From an uncultured Lachnospiraceae bacterium (GTDB taxonomy: Bacteria; Bacillota; Clostridia; Lachnospirales; Lachnospiraceae): a stretch of 56,210 nt of DNA. The position numbers were made by a program, and so were the translations under genes. The notes under the pieces are model-generated. The model had not been told where the DNA came from and did no database searches. It was given only the letters and a program-made list of their open reading frames with translations. Shown here piece by piece: positions 47,359 to 56,210 of this stretch; within the stretch, counting starts at the first letter, position 1; each line of letters begins with the position of its first letter. The stretch spans positions 1 to 56,210 of the forward strand of contig CALWLI010000024.1 of assembly GCA_944381485.1 (NCBI GenBank), written 5' to 3'.

Positions 47359-48297
47359 TCAGGCTGTATAATCGATCTCCTCAAGATACCTTGAGAGAGC
47401 GTCCTGCCATGTGGGGAGTTCCTCAAACCCCTCCTCGGAAAGCTTTGAGAGATCCATCCTGGAATTGTGAGGTCTCTTTGCCTTTGCCGGGTACTTTGAA
47501 GAATCCACCGGCTCTACCTCCACATCTTTTCCTGAAAGCCTGAATATCTCCTTTGCAAAATCATACCAGCTGCAAAGTCCTGTATTTGCCACATGATAGG
47601 TTCCGTACTTGTCGGAAAGTATCATATCTACTGCAATGCGGGCAATGTCAGGGGTGTAGGTGGGAGAGCCTATCTGGTCGTCCACCACAGTAAGTCTGTC
47701 ATGGGTCTCGGAAAGCTTGAGCATGGTCTTTACAAAGTTCTTTCCGTTCTTTCCGTATACCCACTGTATCCTTACTATAAAATGCCTGTCGGGGACGTAC
47801 TTTCTGACAGCCTCCTCACCCTCATATTTTGTCTGTCCGTAGACATTTAAGGGCTCGGCCTCGTCTTCAGGCTCCCAGGGCCTGTCTCCCTCTCCGTTAA
47901 ACACGTAGTCAGTGGAGAAATACATCATGGGTATCATGAGCTCCCTGCAGACCTTTGCTATATTCTCTGTGCCGTAGGCGTTCACAAGCCTGCACTTTTC
48001 CTCATTGTCCTCAGCCGCGTCCACCGCAGTCCAAGCGGCGCAGTGTATCACCGCGTCGGGAGCGGCGTCGCCTATCACCTGTCTCACGGCCTCAGGGTCC
48101 GTGATGTCCCTCTCCTCGATATCTACACCTATGCCCTCTATATTCCTCTTTTGGAGCTCCAGCATGATATCGTGGCCCAGCTGTCCCTTTACTCCCGTGA
48201 CAAATATCCTCTTTGCGCTGTCCTCTATGAGCTTGTCAATGTCAAGCTCACCGAAATCCGTCTTGATTATAGTATTCTTGAGATCGTTGCTTATCAT
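47359..48297 (-). CDS. rfbD: dTDP-4-dehydrorhamnose reductase
   Basis: 312 aa. It reduces dTDP-4-keto-L-rhamnose to dTDP-L-rhamnose with NAD(P)H. The nucleotide loop is FVTGVKGQLGHDIM, the catalytic YxxxK is YGQTKYEGEE, and STDYVFNGEG and NTGLCSWYDFAKEIF match the family. About 28 residues precede the Rossmann strand that usually begins the protein, and the start is supported by GGGGATATACT before the ATG, so the extension is probably translated. It is downstream of rfbB by 27 bases. Confidence 0.94.
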   Translation of the reverse strand: MISNDLKNTIIKTDFGELDIDKLIEDSAKRIFVTGVKGQLGHDIMLELQKRNIEGIGVDIEERDITDPEAVRQVIGDAAPDAVIHCAAWTAVDAAEDNEEKCRLVNAYGTENIAKVCRELMIPMMYFSTDYVFNGEGDRPWEPEDEAEPLNVYGQTKYEGEEAVRKYVPDRHFIVRIQWVYGKNGKNFVKTMLKLSETHDRLTVVDDQIGSPTYTPDIARIAVDMILSDKYGTYHVANTGLCSWYDFAKEIFRLSGKDVEVEPVDSSKYPAKAKRPHNSRMDLSKLSEEGFEELPTWQDALSRYLEEIDYTA

Positions 48298-48324
48298 AGT
48301 ATATCCCCTGCGCCCTTTAAGTTT

Positions 48325-49350
48325 TTAATTGACTCTGTCCCTGTACATTTCCTTGAAATAATTCTGATACTCTCCGCTTATTATCCTCTCCCACCAGTCC
48401 TTGTTTTTGAGATACCACTCTATGGTCTGCTTTATGCCTGTATCAAAATTGTACTTGGGCTTCCATCCCAGTTCTCTCTCGAGCTTTGCGGGATCTATGG
48501 CATATCTTCTGTCGTGTCCCGGCCTGTCCTTAACATACTTTATGAGGGACTCGGGCTTCCCGAGGGCCGAGAGTATGGTCTTTACAACCTGAAGGTTCGT
48601 CCTCTCATTGTGACCGCCTATATTGTAGATCTCTCCCTCTTTTCCCTCTCTCACGATAAGGTCGATAGCCTTGCAGTGATCCTCAACGTGGAGCCAGTCT
48701 CTCACGTTCGCTCCGTCTCCGTATACGGGAAGCTCCTCGTCCGCGAGAGCTCTCGATATCATGAGAGGGATGAGCTTCTCGGGGAACTGGTACTGCCCGT
48801 AGTTGTTGGAGCATCTTGAGATGGTGACAGGTATCTTAAATGTCCTGTGGTATGCCATAACGAACATGTCCGCCGAAGCCTTTGAAGCCGAGTAAGGGCT
48901 TGAGGCGTGGAGAGGTGTCTCCTCCGTAAAGAAGAGATCGGGCCTGTCAAGAGGCAGGTCTCCGTAGACCTCATCGGTGGACACCTGATGGTATCTCTTT
49001 ATGCCGTACTTTTTGCAGGCGTCAAGGAGGGTGGTGGTGCCCATCACATTGGTACGCACGAACTCCTCGGGATGCTCAACAGAACGATCCACATGGCTCT
49101 CCGCCGCAAAGTTTATGATAACGTCGGGCTTTTCCTCCTCAAAGAGCTTGAAAACAAATGCCCTGTCTGCAATATCTCCCTTTACAAACTTATAATTGGG
49201 CTTTCCCTCTATGCTCTTTAAATTTTCAAGGTTTCCCGCGTAGGTGAGCTTGTCAAGGTTTATTATCATGTCCTCGGGATAGGTGTTTACCAGATACTGC
49301 ACCATTACGCTCCCGATAAATCCCGCTCCGCCTGTAACTACTATCTTCAT
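48325..49350 (-). CDS. rfbB: dTDP-glucose 4,6-dehydratase
   Basis: 341 aa. An extended short-chain dehydrogenase that turns dTDP-glucose into dTDP-4-keto-6-deoxyglucose. IVVTGGAGFIGSVMVQYL is the NAD loop; VSTDEVYGDLP and YSASKASADMFVMAYHRTF hold the catalytic Thr-Asp-Glu and Tyr/Lys residues; SRCSNNYGQYQFPEKLIP is diagnostic. TTAGGAG precedes the ATG. Its product may feed both rhamnose synthesis and the DegT aminotransferase. Confidence 0.96.
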   Translation of the reverse strand: MKIVVTGGAGFIGSVMVQYLVNTYPEDMIINLDKLTYAGNLENLKSIEGKPNYKFVKGDIADRAFVFKLFEEEKPDVIINFAAESHVDRSVEHPEEFVRTNVMGTTTLLDACKKYGIKRYHQVSTDEVYGDLPLDRPDLFFTEETPLHASSPYSASKASADMFVMAYHRTFKIPVTISRCSNNYGQYQFPEKLIPLMISRALADEELPVYGDGANVRDWLHVEDHCKAIDLIVREGKEGEIYNIGGHNERTNLQVVKTILSALGKPESLIKYVKDRPGHDRRYAIDPAKLERELGWKPKYNFDTGIKQTIEWYLKNKDWWERIISGEYQNYFKEMYRDRVN

Positions 49351-49430
49351 ATGTTTAACTCCTAAATTTTTTTGAAATAGCTATGTTTATTTTATTTTTC
49401 CGCAAAGCTCCAAAAGCGAGTTCTGCGGCC

Positions 49431-50321
49431 TTACTTTTGGATCTTATCTACATATTTTCCGTCCAGCACGTCCTTTAAATACTTGCCGTACTGGTTTTTT
49501 TTAAGTACCTCGTAGGACTTAAGGACCTCCTCCTTGGTGATCCAACCGTTTAAATAGGCTATCTCCTCAAGGCAGGCTATCTTTCTGTGCTGATGGGTCT
49601 CCACTGTACGCACGAAATTCCCGGCATCCATGAGGGACTCATGGGTTCCCGTGTCAAGCCAAGTAAAGCCCTGTCCCAGAAGCTCCACCTCCAGCTCGCC
49701 GTTCTCGAGATAAATGCGGTTAAGATCCGTTATCTCAAGCTCGCCTCTTGCGGAGGGCTTAAGATTTTTAGCATACTCCACCACCTTGTTGTCGTAGAAG
49801 TAGAGTCCGGTGACGCAGTAGTTGGACTTGGGGTTTTGAGGCTTTTCCTCTATGGAGACAGCCTTTCCCTCGCTGTCAAACTCCACTATTCCGAAGCGCT
49901 CAGGGTCGTCAACATAGTATCCGAAGACTGTTGCGCCCTCAGTCTTTTCAGCGGCCTTCCTCAGTCTCTTTGTGAAGCCGTGTCCGTGGAAGATATTGTC
50001 TCCCAGTATCATGGCTACAGAGTCATCACCTATAAAGTCCTCGCCGATGATGAAGGCCTGGGCGAGGCCGTCCGGAGATGGCTGTACCTTGTAGCTAAGG
50101 CTTATTCCAAACTGGTGTCCGTCACCCAAGAGATCCTCGAACCTGGGAGTGTCCGTAGGTGTGGATATGATAAGTATGTCCTTTATGCCCGCATTCATGA
50201 GAACCGACAGCGGATAGTATATCATGGGCTTGTCGTAAATGGGCAAAAGCTGCTTTGATGTTACCTTTGTCAGCGGGTAAAGCCTCGTCCCCGAGCCCCC
50301 CGCAAGGATGATTCCCTTCAT
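49431..50321 (-). CDS. rfbA: Glucose-1-phosphate thymidylyltransferase
   Basis: 296 aa. It makes dTDP-glucose from dTTP and glucose 1-phosphate, the first step of dTDP-rhamnose synthesis. [52 protein letters not shown] and [21 protein letters not shown] are the expected blocks, and [14 protein letters not shown] closes the active site. CGGAGG precedes the ATG. It is probably the first gene of the glycan operon, with a promoter embedded in an upstream terminator. Confidence 0.97.
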
Positions 50322-50388
50322 TCTTTTCCTCCGAATCCGCCCGGAGCAAAGCTCTTAAGCGGTGTTTTTCTTTAAAATACTGCTTTTT

Positions 50389-50417
50389 ATAATAGCATAA
50401 AGCCGCATAGTTTTCCA
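50389..50417 (-). promoter_or_regulatory. Possible promoter of rfbA inside the upstream terminator
   Basis: On the minus strand TGGAAA (50417-50412) and TATTAT (50394-50389) are separated by 17 bases, about 70 bases before rfbA. The -35 lies in the loop of the hairpin at 50399-50429. It is a candidate start for the long glycan operon; the -35 box is weak. Confidence 0.4.
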
Positions 50418-50429
50418 CTATACGGCTTT
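50399..50429 (-). terminator. Terminator-like hairpin after the DUF4349 gene
   Basis: AAAGCCGTATAGT pairs with ACTATGCGGCTTT (one mismatch) around a five-base loop, about 60 bases beyond the DUF4349 stop. It is flanked by AT-rich sequence on both sides (TTTTAAAG and ATGCTATTAT). It separates the DUF4349 gene from the glycan operon. Confidence 0.6.
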
Positions 50430-50489
50430 TAAAGTTTTCTTTAAAATTTGCGTTTTACCGCTCTCCGAATACTTAACCCGCCACAGCCC

Positions 50490-51503
50490 TCACTTTTTTT
50501 CGCGTTGTATCTCGTCTCCTTCTCCTTTTCCCTCTTTGTTGATCTGCCTGTTTTTTCTGCGGTTCTTCACGGTTTTTGCCGCCTTGTAAACGCCTGATAT
50601 GACCATACCCAAAACAGCCGCCACAGGCAGAAAGCTTACTGTAACTATGACCGCATTTTCGAGAAAGCTTCCGAGACCACTCATGTTTTTGGATATACCC
50701 GAGCCTATCCTCTCAAGGACTCCTGCCTGAGCGCCGACTGTTAGGACCTTCACCTCGCTGATATCTATCCTTACAGTGCTGTAGTTCACCTGATTGTCAT
50801 AAAGTCTCAGCTGTGACTCAAAGTTTTGGAGCTCATATCTTATCTCCGAAAGCCTGTCCTCTATTACGATAAGGCTCTCCGCGCTCTCCGCCTCCGATAA
50901 TAGTTCCGTAAGCCTCTCCTGCTCTGTCTTAAGGGCGGTAATGCGGGACTCGGTGTCCGTATATTTAAGGGTGATGTCAGTGAGCTGCTCGTTTTTGGAT
51001 ATGATATTTGCATACGCAAAGGCTGTGTCCATGAATTCATCCAGCCTTTCGGAGGGTATCCTCACCGTAAAATGTCCCCATCTCGTCTCCCCGTTTTTGA
51101 TGTTGCCGCTGACAGACGAGCTCTCAACATAACCTGAGAGGGCCTCGGCCTTCTCCTCTATAGAAGCCGTGAGCCTGTCAAACTCCTCGGTCTCGACTCT
51201 CATGCTTACATCCTTTATGAGCTTCCTTGAGCCTGTCTCAGGCCCTGACGTGTACTCGGCTTCCCCCATGCTCCCTTTATCGGCTTCAACGATTCGGTTT
51301 GCCGAGGGAGCCGCCCCGAAGCCTGACTCCGCCGTAACGCTTCCCACACTTTGTGCTACTGCCCCCGCCTCGTCATAGGCCGCTGCGGTCTCCGCTGTCA
51401 CCATCTCAGCCTCATAAGCCGAATCAGCCTCCGAGCCCGCCCCGCAGGCGGCTGATAAAAACGCAGTCGAAAGTGCCAACAGAATCAAAATTGTTTTTTT
51501 CAT
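50490..51503 (-). CDS. DUF4349 lipoprotein
   Basis: 337 aa from the ATG at 51503 (GGGGAGGAG upstream). It starts with a lipoprotein signal with lipobox LSAAC (Cys20), then an Ala/Glu-rich linker. Residues about 100-280 match DUF4349: RKLIKDVSMRVETEEFDRL, the GYVESSSVSG turn and the WGHFTVRIPSERLDEFM block, followed by a coiled-coil stretch (TALKTEQERLTELLSEAESAE). A single C-terminal membrane helix (about 278-300) and a basic tail end it. The function of the family is unknown; a role at the cell envelope is likely. It appears to be transcribed alone. Confidence 0.88.
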   Translation of the reverse strand: MKKTILILLALSTAFLSAACGAGSEADSAYEAEMVTAETAAAYDEAGAVAQSVGSVTAESGFGAAPSANRIVEADKGSMGEAEYTSGPETGSRKLIKDVSMRVETEEFDRLTASIEEKAEALSGYVESSSVSGNIKNGETRWGHFTVRIPSERLDEFMDTAFAYANIISKNEQLTDITLKYTDTESRITALKTEQERLTELLSEAESAESLIVIEDRLSEIRYELQNFESQLRLYDNQVNYSTVRIDISEVKVLTVGAQAGVLERIGSGISKNMSGLGSFLENAVIVTVSFLPVAAVLGMVISGVYKAAKTVKNRRKNRQINKEGKGEGDEIQREKK

Positions 51504-51620
51504 ACCAAAAGTCTCCTCCCCATATATTTTCATCTGAAATATATACGGGCCATACAGGTCCGGGCTTTCAATGATTATTCATAGTTTCTTATGTAAACAT
51601 GTAAATCCTCCAAAATCTTA

Positions 51621-52256
51621 TCAACTTATTTCATTCAATATCTTCTTGCTACGCTCAAGCACATCATAAATGATCTGATCCGACAGCCCTATATTGAAAA
51701 AATAGTCAGATAAAAGCAGATCCGATATATCATCCCATGTAATGTTCAATTCATGATTTGTCATTTTCCATATAAGCGACAATTCAGAACTTTTGAACGC
51801 TGTCAAATATATCTCGTTTTCCATTGGCGTAACAGAAAGACCATACGCTTTTATCACGTCCCATGCCAAATCTGTAAACGTTTCTCCCATGCGTATATTT
51901 GAAAGGTTTGAATCCGCGAGTTCAAATACCAAGCGGTATAATTCAGGCGTCGTATACCTCCACAGAAGTATCGTATAGACACACATTTTTTCAGCAGGAC
52001 CGGTATCCTCGGGTAATTTCGTTTCAAAAGCCTTTTCATAAAGCTTTTTATTGGAATAGTCCATAACCTTGGCCCCCAGATTCTCTTTTGAAGAAAAATA
52101 ATAGCTTATTAATCCCAAATTTACTCCGGCGCAAGCTGCTATTTCCCTTGTAGTCACATTTTTATATCCCTTTTTCAGAAAAAGATCATATGCCACCTTA
52201 AGAATACTTGATGCAGTCCGATTCAAGCTTTCCTTTTTTTCTTGTTTGTATCTCAT
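51621..52256 (-). CDS. TetR/AcrR-family transcriptional regulator
   Basis: 211 aa. The N-terminal helix-turn-helix (TASSILKVAYDLFLKKGYKNVTTREIAACAGVNLGLISYYFSSKENL; residues about 14-58) is typical; the C-terminal ligand/dimer domain has no clear relative. AGAGG precedes the ATG. It is transcribed away from the ATC-hydrolase operon across 349 bases holding two matching palindromes, the usual layout of a TetR repressor with its target. The gene is visibly more AT-rich than the glycan genes to its left, which hints at separate origin. The ligand is probably the substrate handled by the operon (inference). Confidence 0.93.
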   Translation of the reverse strand: MRYKQEKKESLNRTASSILKVAYDLFLKKGYKNVTTREIAACAGVNLGLISYYFSSKENLGAKVMDYSNKKLYEKAFETKLPEDTGPAEKMCVYTILLWRYTTPELYRLVFELADSNLSNIRMGETFTDLAWDVIKAYGLSVTPMENEIYLTAFKSSELSLIWKMTNHELNITWDDISDLLLSDYFFNIGLSDQIIYDVLERSKKILNEIS

Positions 52257-52285
52257 AATATCCTCTTTCTTTAATTTATTTAATT

Positions 52286-52315
52286 ATTATATACTTTTCT
52301 GCCGATCAAAATCAA
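52286..52315 (-). promoter_or_regulatory. Promoter of the TetR gene
   Basis: On the minus strand TTGATT (52315-52310) and a perfect TATAAT (52291-52286) are separated by 18 bases, about 30 bases before the TetR start. The palindrome at 52333-52346 lies just upstream of the -35 box. Confidence 0.65.
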
Positions 52316-52332
52316 TATTCCTTCACAACGCT

Positions 52333-52346
52333 TTATACATGTATAA
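52333..52346. promoter_or_regulatory. Operator-like palindrome 1
   Basis: TTATACATGTATAA is a perfect 14-base palindrome. It shares the core TTAnnCATGnnTAA with the palindrome at 52565-52580. It lies upstream of the TetR promoter, a suitable site for autoregulation. Confidence 0.55.
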
Positions 52347-52526
52347 GCAAACCATATCACAATAAATATTGGAATTTTATACGGATGATCCCCTCATATA
52401 AATTATTCACATATAATATTTTGCTCTTTTCATCTGTTTTTGAATTTTTACGCGAAAATACACACAAAATCATCAGGCATTTTTTGTATATTTTTTATAA
52501 TATTTGCTCTGTTTTCCAATTTATTG

Positions 52527-52555
52527 TTGACATTTTAATATGCCGGGTTTATTTT
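52527..52555 (+). promoter_or_regulatory. Promoter of the ATC-hydrolase / amidohydrolase operon
   Basis: A perfect TTGACA (52527-52532) is followed after exactly 17 bases by TATTTT (52550-52555). Transcription should start near 52562, just before the 16-base palindrome, which would place that palindrome in a classical repressor position. Confidence 0.7.
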
Positions 52556-52564
52556 TATTTTATA

Positions 52565-52580
52565 TTTAGTCATGACTAAA
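52565..52580. promoter_or_regulatory. Operator-like palindrome 2
   Basis: TTTAGTCATGACTAAA is a perfect 16-base palindrome lying at about +3 to +18 relative to the predicted transcription start and ten bases before the AGGAGG of the first gene. Its inner 14 bases fit TTAnnCATGnnTAA, as does palindrome 1. Confidence 0.65.
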
Positions 52581-52605
52581 AAATATAAATCAGGAGGTGA
52601 AATTT

Positions 52606-53094
52606 ATGGCAAATATAATAAGCCCGGACGAATTGCCTGTTTTAACCAGAAGAGAGGTGGAGGCGCGTATCCTAAAGCCATTCTTGGAAGCCCTCGAACA
52701 GGAACTCGGCACCGAAAAAACCATTGAAATACTTACGAAAGCTGTCACAAAGGACGCCTTGGCTCACGGGGCAAAGCAAGCAGAGCTCCACGGCAGCAAC
52801 AAGCTTGAAGATCTTCCGGCGATTTGCAGCCACCACTCCGAAGGGGGAAGCTTGGATGTTGAATGTACAAGGCTCTCCGAAAACAAATTGCTCTATAAAA
52901 CATTGAGATGCGAATACTGTGATATGTACAAGCGACTCGGCATGGAAAAGTGGGGGCCTTATCTCTCCTGTATGCGTGACGAGGCATTCTTCAAGGGGAT
53001 AAATCCCGACTTTGCTTTTGAACGCACACAGACTCTGATGACCGGAGGAGAATGCTGCGACAGCGTGATTATCGACACGAAAGGGGAGAATTAA
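52606..53094 (+). CDS. L-2-amino-thiazoline-4-carboxylic acid hydrolase family protein
   Basis: 162 aa from the ATG at 52606, with AGGAGG at correct spacing; a GTG nine bases earlier lies on the ribosome site. It is a small soluble protein whose second half has the conserved order of the ATC-hydrolase family: Cys pair in RCEYCDMYKRLGMEKWGPYLSC, then RDEAFFKGINPDFAFERTQTLM and GGECCDSV. In Pseudomonas the family member AtcB opens L-2-amino-thiazoline-4-carboxylate to N-carbamoyl-L-cysteine, which the amidohydrolase AtcC then cleaves to cysteine. Here an M20 amidohydrolase follows directly, in keeping with a two-step scheme. The true substrate may differ, since the family is broad. Confidence 0.82.
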   Translation: MANIISPDELPVLTRREVEARILKPFLEALEQELGTEKTIEILTKAVTKDALAHGAKQAELHGSNKLEDLPAICSHHSEGGSLDVECTRLSENKLLYKTLRCEYCDMYKRLGMEKWGPYLSCMRDEAFFKGINPDFAFERTQTLMTGGECCDSVIIDTKGEN

Positions 53095-54273
53095 ATGGAT
53101 ATCAAGGACAGAGCGCTGAAGTACGAGGATTACATTATCAATATGCGCAGATGGTTTCATCAGCATCCGGAGCTTTCCAACAAGGAATTTGAGACTACCG
53201 AACGCATAATCAGAGAGCTTGGAGATATTGGTATCGAGGCCCGGCGGTTTGACGGTCTTACAGGTTGTCAGGCCGTAATAAGGGGAGGCAAGGTCTCCGA
53301 GAATCCGGCCACTATCCTCTTAAGAGCCGACATAGACGCTCTCCCGACTCAGGAAGCCACAGATCTTCCCTACAAGAGCGTCAACGACGGAGTAATGCAC
53401 TCATGCGGCCACGACTCGCATATCGCAATGCTCCTTGGAGCCGCAAGGATACTTACAGACCTTAAGGGCGAATTTTCAGGCAATGTAAAGCTCATATTTC
53501 AGGGAGCGGAGGAGACGGCTATAGGGGCGAAAGCTTACGTAGATCGAGGCGTTTTAAACGGAGTTGATGCCGTGTTGGGTCTGCACATAGCGTCTTGGAA
53601 GGAAGCCGGATATTTCAGCATTCCCGACGGCCCACAGACAGCAAGCAGCGACCAGTTTACAATAACAGTAAAAGGCAAGGCCTGTCACGGCGGACTGCCC
53701 CACGAAGGCCATGATTCTATCACTGCAGCGGCAGCGATCGTCATGAATCTTCAAACGCTTATTTCCAGAGAGAATGATCCGAGAAATGCGTCAGTTATCA
53801 CCATAGGGCGAATAGACGGCGGTTATCAGTATAATATCGTTGCCGGAAAAACCGTTCTGTACGGCAATGTCCGTGATTTCTCAAAAATCCACCGGATGGA
53901 GGTGTCTGATCGCATCAGAGAGATGGTTCAATATACTGCAAAGGCCTATGGATGCAGTGCAGATATAGACTACGAATTTAAAACCGGCCCTGTTATACAC
54001 GAGGATGTTGATTTTAACAATTTAGTGAGGAATGCCGCAACAAAGCTTTTCGGCGCTGACGTAATAAAAAACGACCCGCCTGTAAGCGGAAGCGATGACT
54101 TCGCATATTTTTGCCAAGATATCCCCGGAGTATTCGCATTTCTCGGCGGTAGGAATGAGGCAAAAGGCTGTGCATATCCTCACCATCATGAATGCTTCAA
54201 TGTAGATGAGTCGGCTTTCGTAAAGGGAAGCGCTCTTTTGGCTCAAGCTTCTGTCGACTTTCTTAACGCCTGA
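53095..54273 (+). CDS. M20 family amidohydrolase (M20D, hippurate / N-acyl-amino-acid hydrolase type)
   Basis: 392 aa. The ATG directly follows the stop of the ATC-hydrolase-like gene. It carries MRRWFHQHPELSNKEFETT, typical of the M20D group, metal ligands in LLRADIDALP and HSCGHDSHIAMLLG, the catalytic GAEE loop and the later HHHECFNVDE. Such enzymes remove acyl or carbamoyl-like groups from amino acids. Known AtcC-type enzymes belong to a related but different M20 branch, so this is a functional analogue at most. No signal peptide, so cytosolic action on an imported substrate is likely. Confidence 0.92.
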   Translation: MDIKDRALKYEDYIINMRRWFHQHPELSNKEFETTERIIRELGDIGIEARRFDGLTGCQAVIRGGKVSENPATILLRADIDALPTQEATDLPYKSVNDGVMHSCGHDSHIAMLLGAARILTDLKGEFSGNVKLIFQGAEETAIGAKAYVDRGVLNGVDAVLGLHIASWKEAGYFSIPDGPQTASSDQFTITVKGKACHGGLPHEGHDSITAAAAIVMNLQTLISRENDPRNASVITIGRIDGGYQYNIVAGKTVLYGNVRDFSKIHRMEVSDRIREMVQYTAKAYGCSADIDYEFKTGPVIHEDVDFNNLVRNAATKLFGADVIKNDPPVSGSDDFAYFCQDIPGVFAFLGGRNEAKGCAYPHHHECFNVDESAFVKGSALLAQASVDFLNA

Positions 54274-54290
54274 TTCCGGATGTCCGGAAT
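54273..54290 (+). repeat. Small perfect inverted repeat between amidohydrolase and transporter genes
   Basis: ATTCCGGA and TCCGGAAT flank a two-base spacer, starting in the amidohydrolase stop codon. The tail TTTAAAAAC is not a U-run, so it is more likely an mRNA-stability or partial-attenuation hairpin than a full terminator. Confidence 0.5.
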
Positions 54291-54336
54291 TTAAAAACTA
54301 TTTATACATCTATATATTTATGAAAGGGAGGCAACT

Positions 54337-55026
54337 ATGAACTATTTTGAAATCGCCAACAGTCCTTGGATCTGGCTTGCCTGCGGAGCCTGTGTGGGCT
54401 GGGTCTTGCTTCAGAGCTTCTTATTTGTGAGAAAATCTCTCAAAGTTGGAAAAGAGCTTGGGGTCACGGATGCCCAAATCAAATCCACAGTAAAAATAGC
54501 TACTGTCACAAGTATAGGCCCGTCTCTTGGGATAGCTGTGGGAATGGTCGCTTTGCTCCTCTCCTTGGGAGGGCCGATCGCTTGGTATAGGTTGTCATAT
54601 ATCGGTTCGGTAGCATATGAAACGACTGCTGCAGAGCTTGGAGCTCAGGCAGCCGGAGAAGCCTTGGGGTCACTGAGCCCTACCGGCTTTGCTACGGCCG
54701 TATGGACCATGACACTCGGCGCTATGGGAGCTCCTATTCTCACCGCACTTTTTACCGATAAAATGGATAAACTTCAAAATATCATGGCCGGCGGAAAAAG
54801 AGAAATGCTTCCCATAATCTCAGGGTGCTGTATAGCAGGTGTATTTGCGTTCCTCACCTGTGACAGGGTCTTCCGTTTCGACGCTCAAACTGTTGCTGCT
54901 CTGGTAGGATTTGCATCTATGGCCCTTTTTTCAGGATTTAATAAAAAGGCTCAAAAGAAATGGATCCACGACTGGGCATTCACCTTGTCCATGTTTATCG
55001 GCATGGCCGTATCCATGCTTTTCTAA
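54337..55026 (+). CDS. DUF5058 family membrane protein
   Basis: 229 aa with about six hydrophobic segments and a charged loop (KSLKVGKELGVTDAQIKSTV) after the first helix. It starts with NYFEIANSPWIWLACG and includes IGPSLGIAVGMVALLLSLGGPIAWYRLSYIGSV, typical of the DUF5058 family, whose function is not established. GGGAGG precedes the ATG. It lies between two M20 amidohydrolase genes and next to a second small membrane protein, so together they could be a two-subunit permease for the amidohydrolase substrate. This is inferred from context. Confidence 0.82.
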   Translation: MNYFEIANSPWIWLACGACVGWVLLQSFLFVRKSLKVGKELGVTDAQIKSTVKIATVTSIGPSLGIAVGMVALLLSLGGPIAWYRLSYIGSVAYETTAAELGAQAAGEALGSLSPTGFATAVWTMTLGAMGAPILTALFTDKMDKLQNIMAGGKREMLPIISGCCIAGVFAFLTCDRVFRFDAQTVAALVGFASMALFSGFNKKAQKKWIHDWAFTLSMFIGMAVSMLF

Positions 55027-55042
55027 ATAAGGAGGGAACAAA

Positions 55043-55738
55043 ATGAGTAATGAAAGTAAAGAGAGTGTATTCTACAAAGATTATATACCCTCTATAATCC
55101 GTTTGGGCCGATTCACAAATCTGCTTGGAGTATTCATGGGATTGCTTCCCGGACTCGTCCTCTTATTTGTGTTCGACCTGCATCCTCAACCCCAACACAT
55201 CCTGACCGGATTTCTTCTTATAGCCTCTATGGAGGGAGTATTTTGGTTTATTGAGCCCATCTCCTATTACGGAGTTCTTGGAATTCCAGGCACATACATG
55301 TCATTTTTGTCCGGAAATATCAGCAACCTCCGCATGCCTGTTTCTATTGCCGTTCAAAACGCTGCGGAGGTTGAGCCCGGAAGCGAGAAGGGTACTATTA
55401 TCTCCACAATAGGAATAGCGGTGTCCATCATTGTAAATGTACTCATCCTTACCTTAGGAGTGATACTCGGTTCATCGGTGCTTTCAATGGTGCCCGAAGG
55501 CGTAACAAATGCTCTCACAAATATAGTTCCCGCTCTCTTTGGAGCTTTATTTGCCCAGCAGCTCGTTTCCGATTTAAAGACCGGTATTGTGGCCGCCTGC
55601 CTCGCTGTAGCAGTGCACCTTATAGGCTATTTCACTCCGCTTCTGAACTGGGTTCCGGGAGGCTCATATTGGTTCATGATGGTTCTGATCATCTTCGGTA
55701 CGATATTTGTAGGCCGAGGAATATCCGGAAAGAAATAG
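55043..55738 (+). CDS. Small multi-pass membrane protein, partner of DUF5058
   Basis: 231 aa with about six hydrophobic segments. No family is recognised with certainty. Notable conserved-looking parts are LLGVFMGLLPGLVLLFVFD, the EGVFWFIEPISYYGVLGIPGTYMSFLSGNISNLRMP stretch with helix-breaking Pro and Gly residues and an NxR motif, and VQNAAEVEPGSEKGTIIST before the fourth helix. AGGAGG lies just before the ATG, 16 bases after the DUF5058 gene, so the two proteins are made together. It looks like the second half of a transporter or channel; there is no ATPase or binding protein in the operon. Confidence 0.78.
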   Translation: MSNESKESVFYKDYIPSIIRLGRFTNLLGVFMGLLPGLVLLFVFDLHPQPQHILTGFLLIASMEGVFWFIEPISYYGVLGIPGTYMSFLSGNISNLRMPVSIAVQNAAEVEPGSEKGTIISTIGIAVSIIVNVLILTLGVILGSSVLSMVPEGVTNALTNIVPALFGALFAQQLVSDLKTGIVAACLAVAVHLIGYFTPLLNWVPGGSYWFMMVLIIFGTIFVGRGISGKK

Positions 55739-55763
55739 TTTCAGGAGGTAATAAAATCAAATT

Positions 55764-56210
55764 ATGGATAAGCAAATACTATATGATGCAATAGATTCCG
55801 AGCGCAATGCTCTTAAAGAAATATCCGATCAACTGTGGGAATATGCGGAAACCGCATTTAATGAAGTGAAATCATCATCCCTTTTAAAAGAGCATATGAA
55901 AGCTCACGGTTTCAATATATCAGATGTGCCAAACATGCCCACAGCTTTTATAGCAGAGTACGGCAGCGGCTATCCCGTTATAGGAATACTCGGAGAATAT
56001 GATGCCCTCCCCGGCCTCTCACAGAAAATCCAAACTACTCAGGAGCCTGTAAAAGAAGGAGCCTCAGGACACGGTTGTGCTCACAATCTCTTAGCCACAG
56101 GATGCGTAGGCGCGGTTGTGGCCATAAAAGAAATGATTGCCTCGGGGAAACTTAAGGGCACAATACGGTATTACGGATGTCCCGCCGAGGAGCAGTTGGT
56201 CGGAAAGCCA
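55764..56210 (+). CDS. M20 family amidohydrolase, AbgB-like (truncated by window end)
   Basis: The first 149 codons are present and the frame is open to the window edge. AGGAGG lies upstream of the ATG at somewhat long spacing. ELWDYAE-type opening (ISDQLWEYAETAFNEVKSS), GILGEYDALPGLSQK and the metal-binding GHGCAHNLLATGCVGAVVA match the AbgB/p-aminobenzoyl-glutamate hydrolase branch of M20 enzymes, in which GHGCAHN replaces the usual CGHDxH; RYYGCPAEEQLVGK holds the catalytic Glu pair. This is a second amidohydrolase of a different type from the one at 53.1 kb. AbgA/AbgB pairs work as heterodimers in E. coli, so the two M20 proteins here might pair. Confidence 0.88.
   Translation, partial: MDKQILYDAIDSERNALKEISDQLWEYAETAFNEVKSSSLLKEHMKAHGFNISDVPNMPTAFIAEYGSGYPVIGILGEYDALPGLSQKIQTTQEPVKEGASGHGCAHNLLATGCVGAVVAIKEMIASGKLKGTIRYYGCPAEEQLVGKP

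Follow-up and report, generated by a model that had tools for sequence, protein, structure and literature searches.

Uptake and cleavage of p-aminobenzoyl-glutamate are carried out by AbgT together with the AbgA/AbgB hydrolases. The reaction of cyanide with cystine is known to yield 2-amino-thiazoline-4-carboxylate (ATC). Formation of ATC from cyanide in mammals is reported in PMC9291117, and the Pseudomonas route leading from ATC through carbamoyl-cysteine to cysteine is outlined in PMC10821248. In the Bacillus yxe route N-acetylcysteine is deacetylated by YxeP, giving cysteine (according to PMC9706529), and CyuP, of the E. coli CyuA/CyuP system for cysteine fermentation, is presented as a cysteine importer in PMC9040844.

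The window (the whole stretch of DNA that was analysed, a contig of 56,210 bases) carries at its right-hand end a TetR-family gene and, divergent from it, an operon of five genes. The gene set and the positions given in an earlier note were all confirmed by the open reading frame coordinates and the family scores:

51621..52256, - strand: TetR-family regulator, divergent from the operon (PF00440, TetR_N, 50.4 bits)
52606..53094, + strand: ATC_hydrolase family protein, 162 aa from the ATG (PF14196, 106.8 bits, cut-off 28.1)
53095..54273, + strand: M20a, an M20D amidohydrolase/deacylase of 392 aa (TIGR01891, 344 bits, cut-off 153.75)
54337..55026, + strand: DUF5058 membrane protein, proposed carrier subunit 1 (PF16481, 216.2 bits, cut-off 28.2)
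55043..55738, + strand: partner membrane protein (PART, 231 aa), proposed carrier subunit 2 (no Pfam family at E 0.01)
55764..56210, + strand: M20b, an M20 amidohydrolase/dipeptidase, first 149 codons

Consecutive genes on the + strand are separated by 0, 63, 16 and 25 bases, and the ATC gene is preceded by a ribosome site (AGGAGG, 8 bases 5' of the ATG). The M20b gene is truncated by the end of the contig; the complete protein has 460 aa in the near-identical locus of a congener (L029, 271-1653, - strand). Like AbgT with AbgA/AbgB, the operon sets a putative membrane importer beside two M20-family hydrolases, but the carrier proposed for it is made up of two small proteins from a family so far undescribed, and it has an ATC_hydrolase gene in addition; neither membrane protein matches the AbgT family in Pfam (DUF5058 matches only PF16481, the partner nothing at E 0.01). 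As in the Pseudomonas ATC pathway, for which we know of no such carrier pair, the ATC_hydrolase gene lies directly 5' of an M20-family amidohydrolase gene. M20a is not, however, of the hydantoinase/carbamoylase type (TIGR01879), to which we take AtcC, cited in the earlier note, to belong: it scores 34.8 bits there, where the cut-off is 204, and is assigned to M20D/TIGR01891. The best solved-structure match of M20a is YxeP (1ysj, E 7.7e-73), the deacetylase of the yxe route, which counts in favour of the reading given below; the acetyltransferase, monooxygenase and ABC transporter genes of that route are missing from the operon. The likeness to CyuA/CyuP lies in a CyuA-type gene, found in the Hespellia version of the operon and in locus L254, both described below; in the route proposed for the window, unlike in the E. 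coli system, cysteine would enter in bound form and through other proteins. The literature search returned no paper naming DUF5058 or PF16481 and, among the matches listed, none on this gene set, in agreement with the earlier note, which knew of no described system of this kind.

We read the locus, with moderate confidence, as a catabolic uptake-and-cleavage operon, in which a DUF5058-partner carrier and hydrolases would free an amino acid, likely cysteine. On the strength of their gene context, DUF5058 and the partner are read together as a single carrier in the membrane, which would probably be a heteromeric secondary importer. Its substrate would be an amide-type conjugate of an amino acid (N-acyl, N-carbamoyl, thiazoline or dipeptide). 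In the cytosol, the ATC_hydrolase-family enzyme would open or trim the conjugate, and the two M20 hydrolases would cleave the amide bond, giving the free amino acid. In Hespellia a CyuA-type desulfidase would ferment the cysteine to pyruvate, ammonia and sulfide, and in the window copy the divergent TetR repressor would probably be in control. L-ATC is an unproven, putative substrate.

Many bacteria, and some archaea, have the membrane pair next to enzymes that cleave amides. In a sample of 398 genomes of the phylum, DUF5058 exceeds the cut-off in 30, every one of which also has the partner, and 30 of the 31 with the partner hold DUF5058. The two genes adjoin in 79 of 80 loci, which are not independent and in all of which the partner is present by construction, since they were chosen by the partner protein. 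An M20 hydrolase lies at most two genes from the pair in 69 of these 80 loci, against none of the 189 genes that lie five or more places away (genes of at least 100 aa on either strand, with an M20 profile made from the pair's neighbours in the other locus set and applied also to the control genes). The earlier proposal that the two membrane proteins belong together, beside amide hydrolases, is borne out by these counts. Several further genes directly beside the pair are hydrolases of amides or peptides (AAT, Amidohydro_1/3, M42, M19, M28, AstE/AspA); some neighbours are of other kinds (CoA transferase III, PGA_cap, a LuxR-type regulator). Of five plasmid records examined, from haloarchaea and Paracoccus, four combine DUF5058 and the partner with an annotated amidohydrolase, and in the 11 matching plasmid records the partner is named only "hypothetical protein". 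In the tree, the M20b labels of the window, of Hespellia (a 50-codon fragment) and of some others were assigned manually, the 17 rows marked "none" include possible gene-calling misses, and the program warned of long branches. Alignments A1 and A2 took 32 of 43 and 34 of 46 available sequences, respectively; A5 and A6 left out near-duplicates over 85%, fragments and two overlong open reading frames, and A6 also the partner sequences of L180 and L136.

Both membrane proteins are modelled as all helical. The mean hydropathy is +0.69 for DUF5058 and +0.9 for the partner; the AlphaFold2 model of DUF5058 is of middling confidence (mean pLDDT 79.9, pTM 0.59), and that of the partner has a mean pLDDT of 87.1. 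Arg85 and Glu95 of DUF5058 are invariant in alignment A5, as are Asn92 and Arg97 of the partner in A6. Homology between the two was rejected by profile comparison (probability 2.6%), despite the similar helix order of the models. Sequence profiles found no relative of solved structure for DUF5058, and for the partner only short, weak MerF matches (E 0.045 or worse). The fold search against solved structures gave no usable transporter homologue, which shows little because the DUF5058 model is middling and the proteins were modelled singly.

The two M20 enzymes of the operon retain motifs that we take to be metal-binding: HSCGHD, AEE, GLH and PHHH in M20a, and GHGCAHN, AEE and WHPA in the complete M20b of the congener. 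The latter protein scores 224 bits with TIGR01891, and the window fragment alone 111 (cut-off 153.75). M20D enzymes act on many substrates. For the ATC protein, which is 52% (BLAST) or 49% (alignment A7) identical to its Hespellia counterpart, the sequence-profile search found no convincing relative of solved structure. As a side observation, PF14196 is named in work on archaeal two-component systems, judging by the title.

The strongest alternative, which we regard as quite possible though less probable, is that the conjugates handled by the carrier and the M20 hydrolases, whether N-acyl or dipeptide, contain another amino acid instead of cysteine, the activity of the ATC protein being unrelated and its Pfam name a transferred label. 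It is favoured by the distribution of the ATC gene, as the pair occurs without it in 124 of 128 loci. A renewed search of the 48 and 80 loci, for which a wider profile had been made from 39 PF14196 loci, found ATC in L003 (the window) and L029 among the former, and in L127 and L128 among the latter, L029 and L127 being the same congener contig. In congeners and their kin, ATC adjoins DUF5058 in two of 61 genomes, and in the phylum sample, among the 30 genomes with DUF5058 over the cut-off, only in the window's own genome. The 128 loci show ATC together with the pair in the window operon, in its congener and in Hespellia, and nowhere else; the core of DUF5058, partner and M20 is far more widespread, and ATC chemistry has been added to it locally. 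Also in favour of a non-cysteine substrate are the CyuA-like genes, present in just two of the 128 loci (L128 and L133) and giving no match in the window's own genome (assembly 91% complete). Such an empty result carries no weight unless backed by a positive control, though the same query matched 111 of the 398 genomes. The full M20b is nearest to HmrA and Xaa-Arg dipeptidase, nearer than to the solved aminobenzoyl-glutamate utilization protein, the entry of which is silent on AbgA versus AbgB, so that "AbgB-like", as the earlier note had it, stays a candidate label. Finally, the PF14196 family may have another role, since its members also occur in dihydroxyacetone-kinase operons, with or without CyuA. 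Beyond the 128-locus count there is one contig-edge case (L258). In G260, which gave no match to DUF5058, the partner gene breaks off at the end of its contig and adjoins a longer, divergent ATC_hydrolase gene; this was not taken as a confirmed case.

Against this alternative, and for cysteine, stand the loci in which ATC meets CyuA. The order ATC-M20a-DUF5058-partner recurs in an isolate of another genus, Hespellia stercorisuis, with 49-62% protein identity depending on the alignment, and after it comes an initial stretch of 50 codons from an M20b gene. The gene order of the window is therefore not chance and, with the near-identical congener copy, the neighbourhood is not confined to one genome, which the earlier note had named as a finding that would refute it. 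In Hespellia a gene of the cysteine-desulfidase type (CyuA) overlaps the ATC gene. Its product aligns to 9he0 (E 2.7e-28) and retains GCTE (Cys, Glu), CGA and CDGAKxxC, including the three cluster cysteines (the roles of the GCTE and cluster-cysteine residues are those given in PMC12647591). Its closest annotated homologue (Vescimonas, 51%) is labelled L-serine ammonia-lyase, and the cysteine-desulfidase label sits on a 34% homologue. In another lineage, locus L254 has ATC, then an MFS_2 permease related to melibiose carriers, then a gene like M20b (41% identical) and, after that, CyuA. The 398 genomes contain four cases of a PF14196 gene no more than 6 kb from a CyuA-like gene, against 0.20 expected, with at least two of the four pairs inside dihydroxyacetone-kinase operons. 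The cysteine idea of the earlier note thus gains an independent argument: in Hespellia and a few other Bacillota, CyuA-type genes adjoin ATC_hydrolase genes or lie near them.

A separate question concerns the ownership of the window copy and not its function. Identity to a contig from a different species of the genus is 99.9% from ~47,600 to 56,210 and ~78% to the left of this block, which is either a recent recombination or an assembly chimera. That the locus is a chimera or mis-binned piece, with the operon foreign to this genome, is rather unlikely: homologous recombination would give the same picture, and the operon was found independently in the Hespellia isolate.

The divergent intergenic region holds three candidate control elements:

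52333..52346, divergent intergenic region: perfect 14-base palindrome TTATACATGTATAA, putative second operator
52527..52555, + strand: sigma-70-like promoter TTGACA-17-TATTTT, a consensus match only
52565..52580, between the -10 and the ribosome site: perfect 16-base palindrome TTTAGTCATGACTAAA, candidate TetR operator

The region contains 11 sigma-70-like sites, against 9.1 (sd 2.8) in shuffles. The 16-base palindrome as TetR operator is suggestive only, since one as long is present in 653 of 20000 simulated regions. TetR control, as earlier suggested, is probable for the window copy with its divergent gene; on the 6.9-kb Hespellia contig no TetR match was found. TetR regulators often govern efflux genes, and the direction of transport is unreadable from sequence; export or sensing by DUF5058 and the partner, e.g. 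efflux of a toxic hydrolase product, is nevertheless very improbable, as the steady pairing with hydrolases (window M20a, M20b and ATC have N-termini without a signal sequence, by eye) and the MFS_2 permease at the corresponding place in L254 fit import, and other regulators stand at other loci, such as a PucR-type cluster (one representative identified) in 27 of 80.

More speculatively, and in our estimate doubtful in its full extent, DUF5058 and the partner may be an unrecognised family of secondary transporters for amide-bound amino acids, reaching from Bacillota to haloarchaea and perhaps of unsolved fold, with which the window lineage and Hespellia would import a cysteine conjugate such as ATC, fermented by these anaerobes to pyruvate, ammonia and sulfide. 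DUF5058 and a "hypothetical protein" thereby become one testable carrier family with a predicted substrate class, and the operons of Hespellia and L254 offer a concrete test of where bound forms may supply anaerobes with cysteine and sulfide. Should ATC be the substrate, the operon would let in a metabolite made from cyanide by mammals.

The earlier note had proposed six genes at 51621..56210 as a TetR-controlled operon that imports an N-acylated or thiazoline amino-acid derivative and hydrolyzes it to cysteine or another amino acid, and all six genes are confirmed at these positions. The order on the + strand is ATC_hydrolase (PF14196, ATC), an M20D deacylase gene (M20a), DUF5058 (PF16481), a second small membrane protein without a Pfam family (the partner) and a second M20 gene (M20b), with successive gaps of 0, 63, 16 and 25 bases. 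An intergenic stretch of 349 bases separates the operon from the divergent TetR gene. M20b is interrupted by the contig end of the window; a contig of a congener genome (L029; public CALWLK010000092.1, L127) carries the same genes complete, with an M20b of 460 aa. The following elements lie upstream of the operon:

52527-52555, promoter-like site, upstream of the palindrome
52565-52580, perfect 16-base palindrome just 5' of the ribosome site, candidate TetR operator

A palindrome of that length occurs in 653 of 20,000 simulated regions of matching composition. At other loci of the DUF5058-partner pair the regulators are of the PucR, sigma-54 or GntR type; apart from the copies in the window and the congener, BLAST detected TetR-like genes in 2 of 48 loci (L075, L093).

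The two membrane proteins occur together. Of 61 related genomes, 15 have DUF5058 and 14 have the partner, the exception (G023) having a truncated DUF5058. Across 398 genomes of the phylum (that of the window included), DUF5058 is found above the cut-off in 30 and the partner in 31, with 30/30 common to both; the extra partner gene (G260) is cut by a contig end, and the partner is absent from two genomes of this sample (G167, G200) whose DUF5058 matches fall under the cut-off. The partner is present in 46 of the 48 loci read (the exceptions are one contig end and one truncated copy). A genome scan with the partner gave 486 stretches encoding a relative, and in 79 of the 80 kept DUF5058 adjoins it; the record titles of these 80 include Bacillota, Synergistaceae, Spirochaetes, Calditrichales, a deltaproteobacterium and the archaeon Natronococcus. 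Eleven plasmid records match the partner, of which five were read. Three haloarchaeal records show DUF5058, a hypothetical protein and then an annotated amidohydrolase, while in Paracoccus the annotated amidohydrolase precedes the pair. The Vibrio copy is surrounded by transposases, with no amidohydrolase in view, and one Arthrobacter and one Paenarthrobacter plasmid record each gave a match to one protein of the pair only. All three haloarchaeal plasmids read (L268, L270, L272) also have a TRIC cation channel family gene near the trio.

The window genome has a second DUF5058-partner locus, divided across two contig ends (L004 on G000 C27, L113 on G000 C28), downstream of genes named by eye as selA-selB-like and cysteine-desulfurase-like. 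Its counterpart in G018 and G005 (L024, L026) runs on into two or three M20 genes.

In 69 of the 80 loci the pair has an M20-family gene no more than two genes away, as compared with 0 of 189 genes from the fifth position outward (same profile), and in 44/80 an M20b-like gene is directly 3' of the pair on the same strand. Pfam naming of the neighbors, applied to cluster representatives only, gave hydrolase-type families (AAT, Amidohydro_1/3, M42, M19, AstE/AspA, M28), CoA transferase III, PGA_cap, SDR, a ketopantoate-reductase-like protein, a xanthine/uracil-type permease, and LuxR-type, PucR and sigma-54 regulators; two neighbors matched no Pfam family, and LepA, an MgsA-type ATPase and NosD are plainly unrelated. 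In four Clostridioides difficile-labelled genomes (L151, L152, L161, L163) the pair is flanked by an M19 dipeptidase on one side and an Amidohydro_3 gene on the other, and a sigma-54 activator and, in 3/4, a xanthine/uracil-type permease are nearby (again from cluster representatives).

On a tree of 89 partner sequences the downstream enzyme type changes 18 times versus 35.1 in shuffles (0/200 as low), and the partner proteins of the window and of Hespellia group together (100/99) within an 11-member, all-M20b clade (100/98). Carrier and adjoining enzyme thus tend to be kept together, which would follow if the imported compound is the substrate of the enzyme; a neighborhood shared through common descent would produce the same pattern.

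A carrier role for the pair is suggested by mean hydropathies of +0.69 (DUF5058) and +0.9 (partner), where the remaining four proteins have -0.2 to -0.4, and by predicted models in which both are helical bundles; neither matched a known enzyme family in Pfam. The strongest argument is one of gene replacement at one locus:

L254, 2158-8865, operon of flavoprotein, ATC_hydrolase, MFS_2 permease, M20b-like and CyuA (cysteine-desulfidase-type) genes

The permease, kin to melibiose carriers, sits between ATC and the M20b-like gene (protein 41% identical), where M20a is absent. L254 is an alternative version of the operon with a different carrier, and by analogy the pair would fill the carrier's place in the window. 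The idea of uptake followed by hydrolysis is supported by context. The ATC-containing version of the operon is rare.

From ~47,600 to its end the window is 99.9% identical to the congener contig (G018 C92; L029, L207), versus ~78% to the left and ~80% at another locus common to both genomes. The segment reflects either a recent exchange between two species or a chimera in one assembly. An rfbA (dTDP-sugar) gene lies ~2 kb away from the jump in identity. Under either reading of the segment the operon itself is real, because an isolate genome carries a version of it:

L128, Hespellia stercorisuis DSM 15480, glycerol-dehydrogenase-like, CyuA-type, ATC, M20a, DUF5058, partner and start of M20b

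Identities to the window proteins are 49-52% (ATC), 57% (M20a), 57-62% (DUF5058) and 60-61% (partner); M20b retains its first 50 codons, followed at the contig end by other DNA, putatively transposase-like by eye. The CyuA-type gene and ATC share 8 to 11 bases, according to which ATC start is taken. An alignment and motif check shows that its protein retains the Cys, the Glu and three cluster cysteines; this Cys and Glu are reported to be critical and to lack conservation in serine dehydratases (PMC12647591). Its closest annotated homologue (Vescimonas, 51%) is labelled L-serine ammonia-lyase, and one from E. coli in the plasmid collection (34%) cysteine desulfidase.

Cysteine would be the likeliest product of the operon. 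This reading is favored because PF14196 is named after ATC hydrolase, because the nearest solved relative of M20a is YxeP, reported to convert N-acetylcysteine to cysteine (PMC9706529), and because CyuA-type genes accompany some PF14196 genes. B. subtilis ScmP is likewise described as highly specific for N-acetylcysteine (PMC12757645). In the 398 genomes, PF14196 and CyuA-like genes (32-43% identical to that of Hespellia) lie within 6 kb in 4 cases, where random placement predicts 0.20 (Poisson p 6e-5), and within 200 bases in 2; in Phascolarctobacterium (L133) the end of a CyuA-like gene is upstream of the pair. A single open frame in L214 (4466-5890) encodes a Gate (nucleoside recognition) domain fused to a CyuA-like C-terminal half. 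Two points count against cysteine. The window's own genome gave no CyuA match, and several PF14196 genes occur in dihydroxyacetone-kinase operons, a setting that an ATC role alone leaves unexplained (L210, L252 and L255 by comparison, L218 by eye); three of these four have a CyuA-like gene, and two of the four PF14196-CyuA-like pairs belong to them. This gene set is not known to have an assigned function.

If the substrate is 2-aminothiazoline-4-carboxylate, it would have a plausible natural source in an animal gut and nothing more, because the compound is reported to form from cyanide and cystine and to be present in the blood and tissues of humans with no known exposure (PMC9291117). The wider interest lies in the DUF5058-partner pair, a proposed family of carriers that would take up amide-bound amino acids, of which no description was found in the papers searched.
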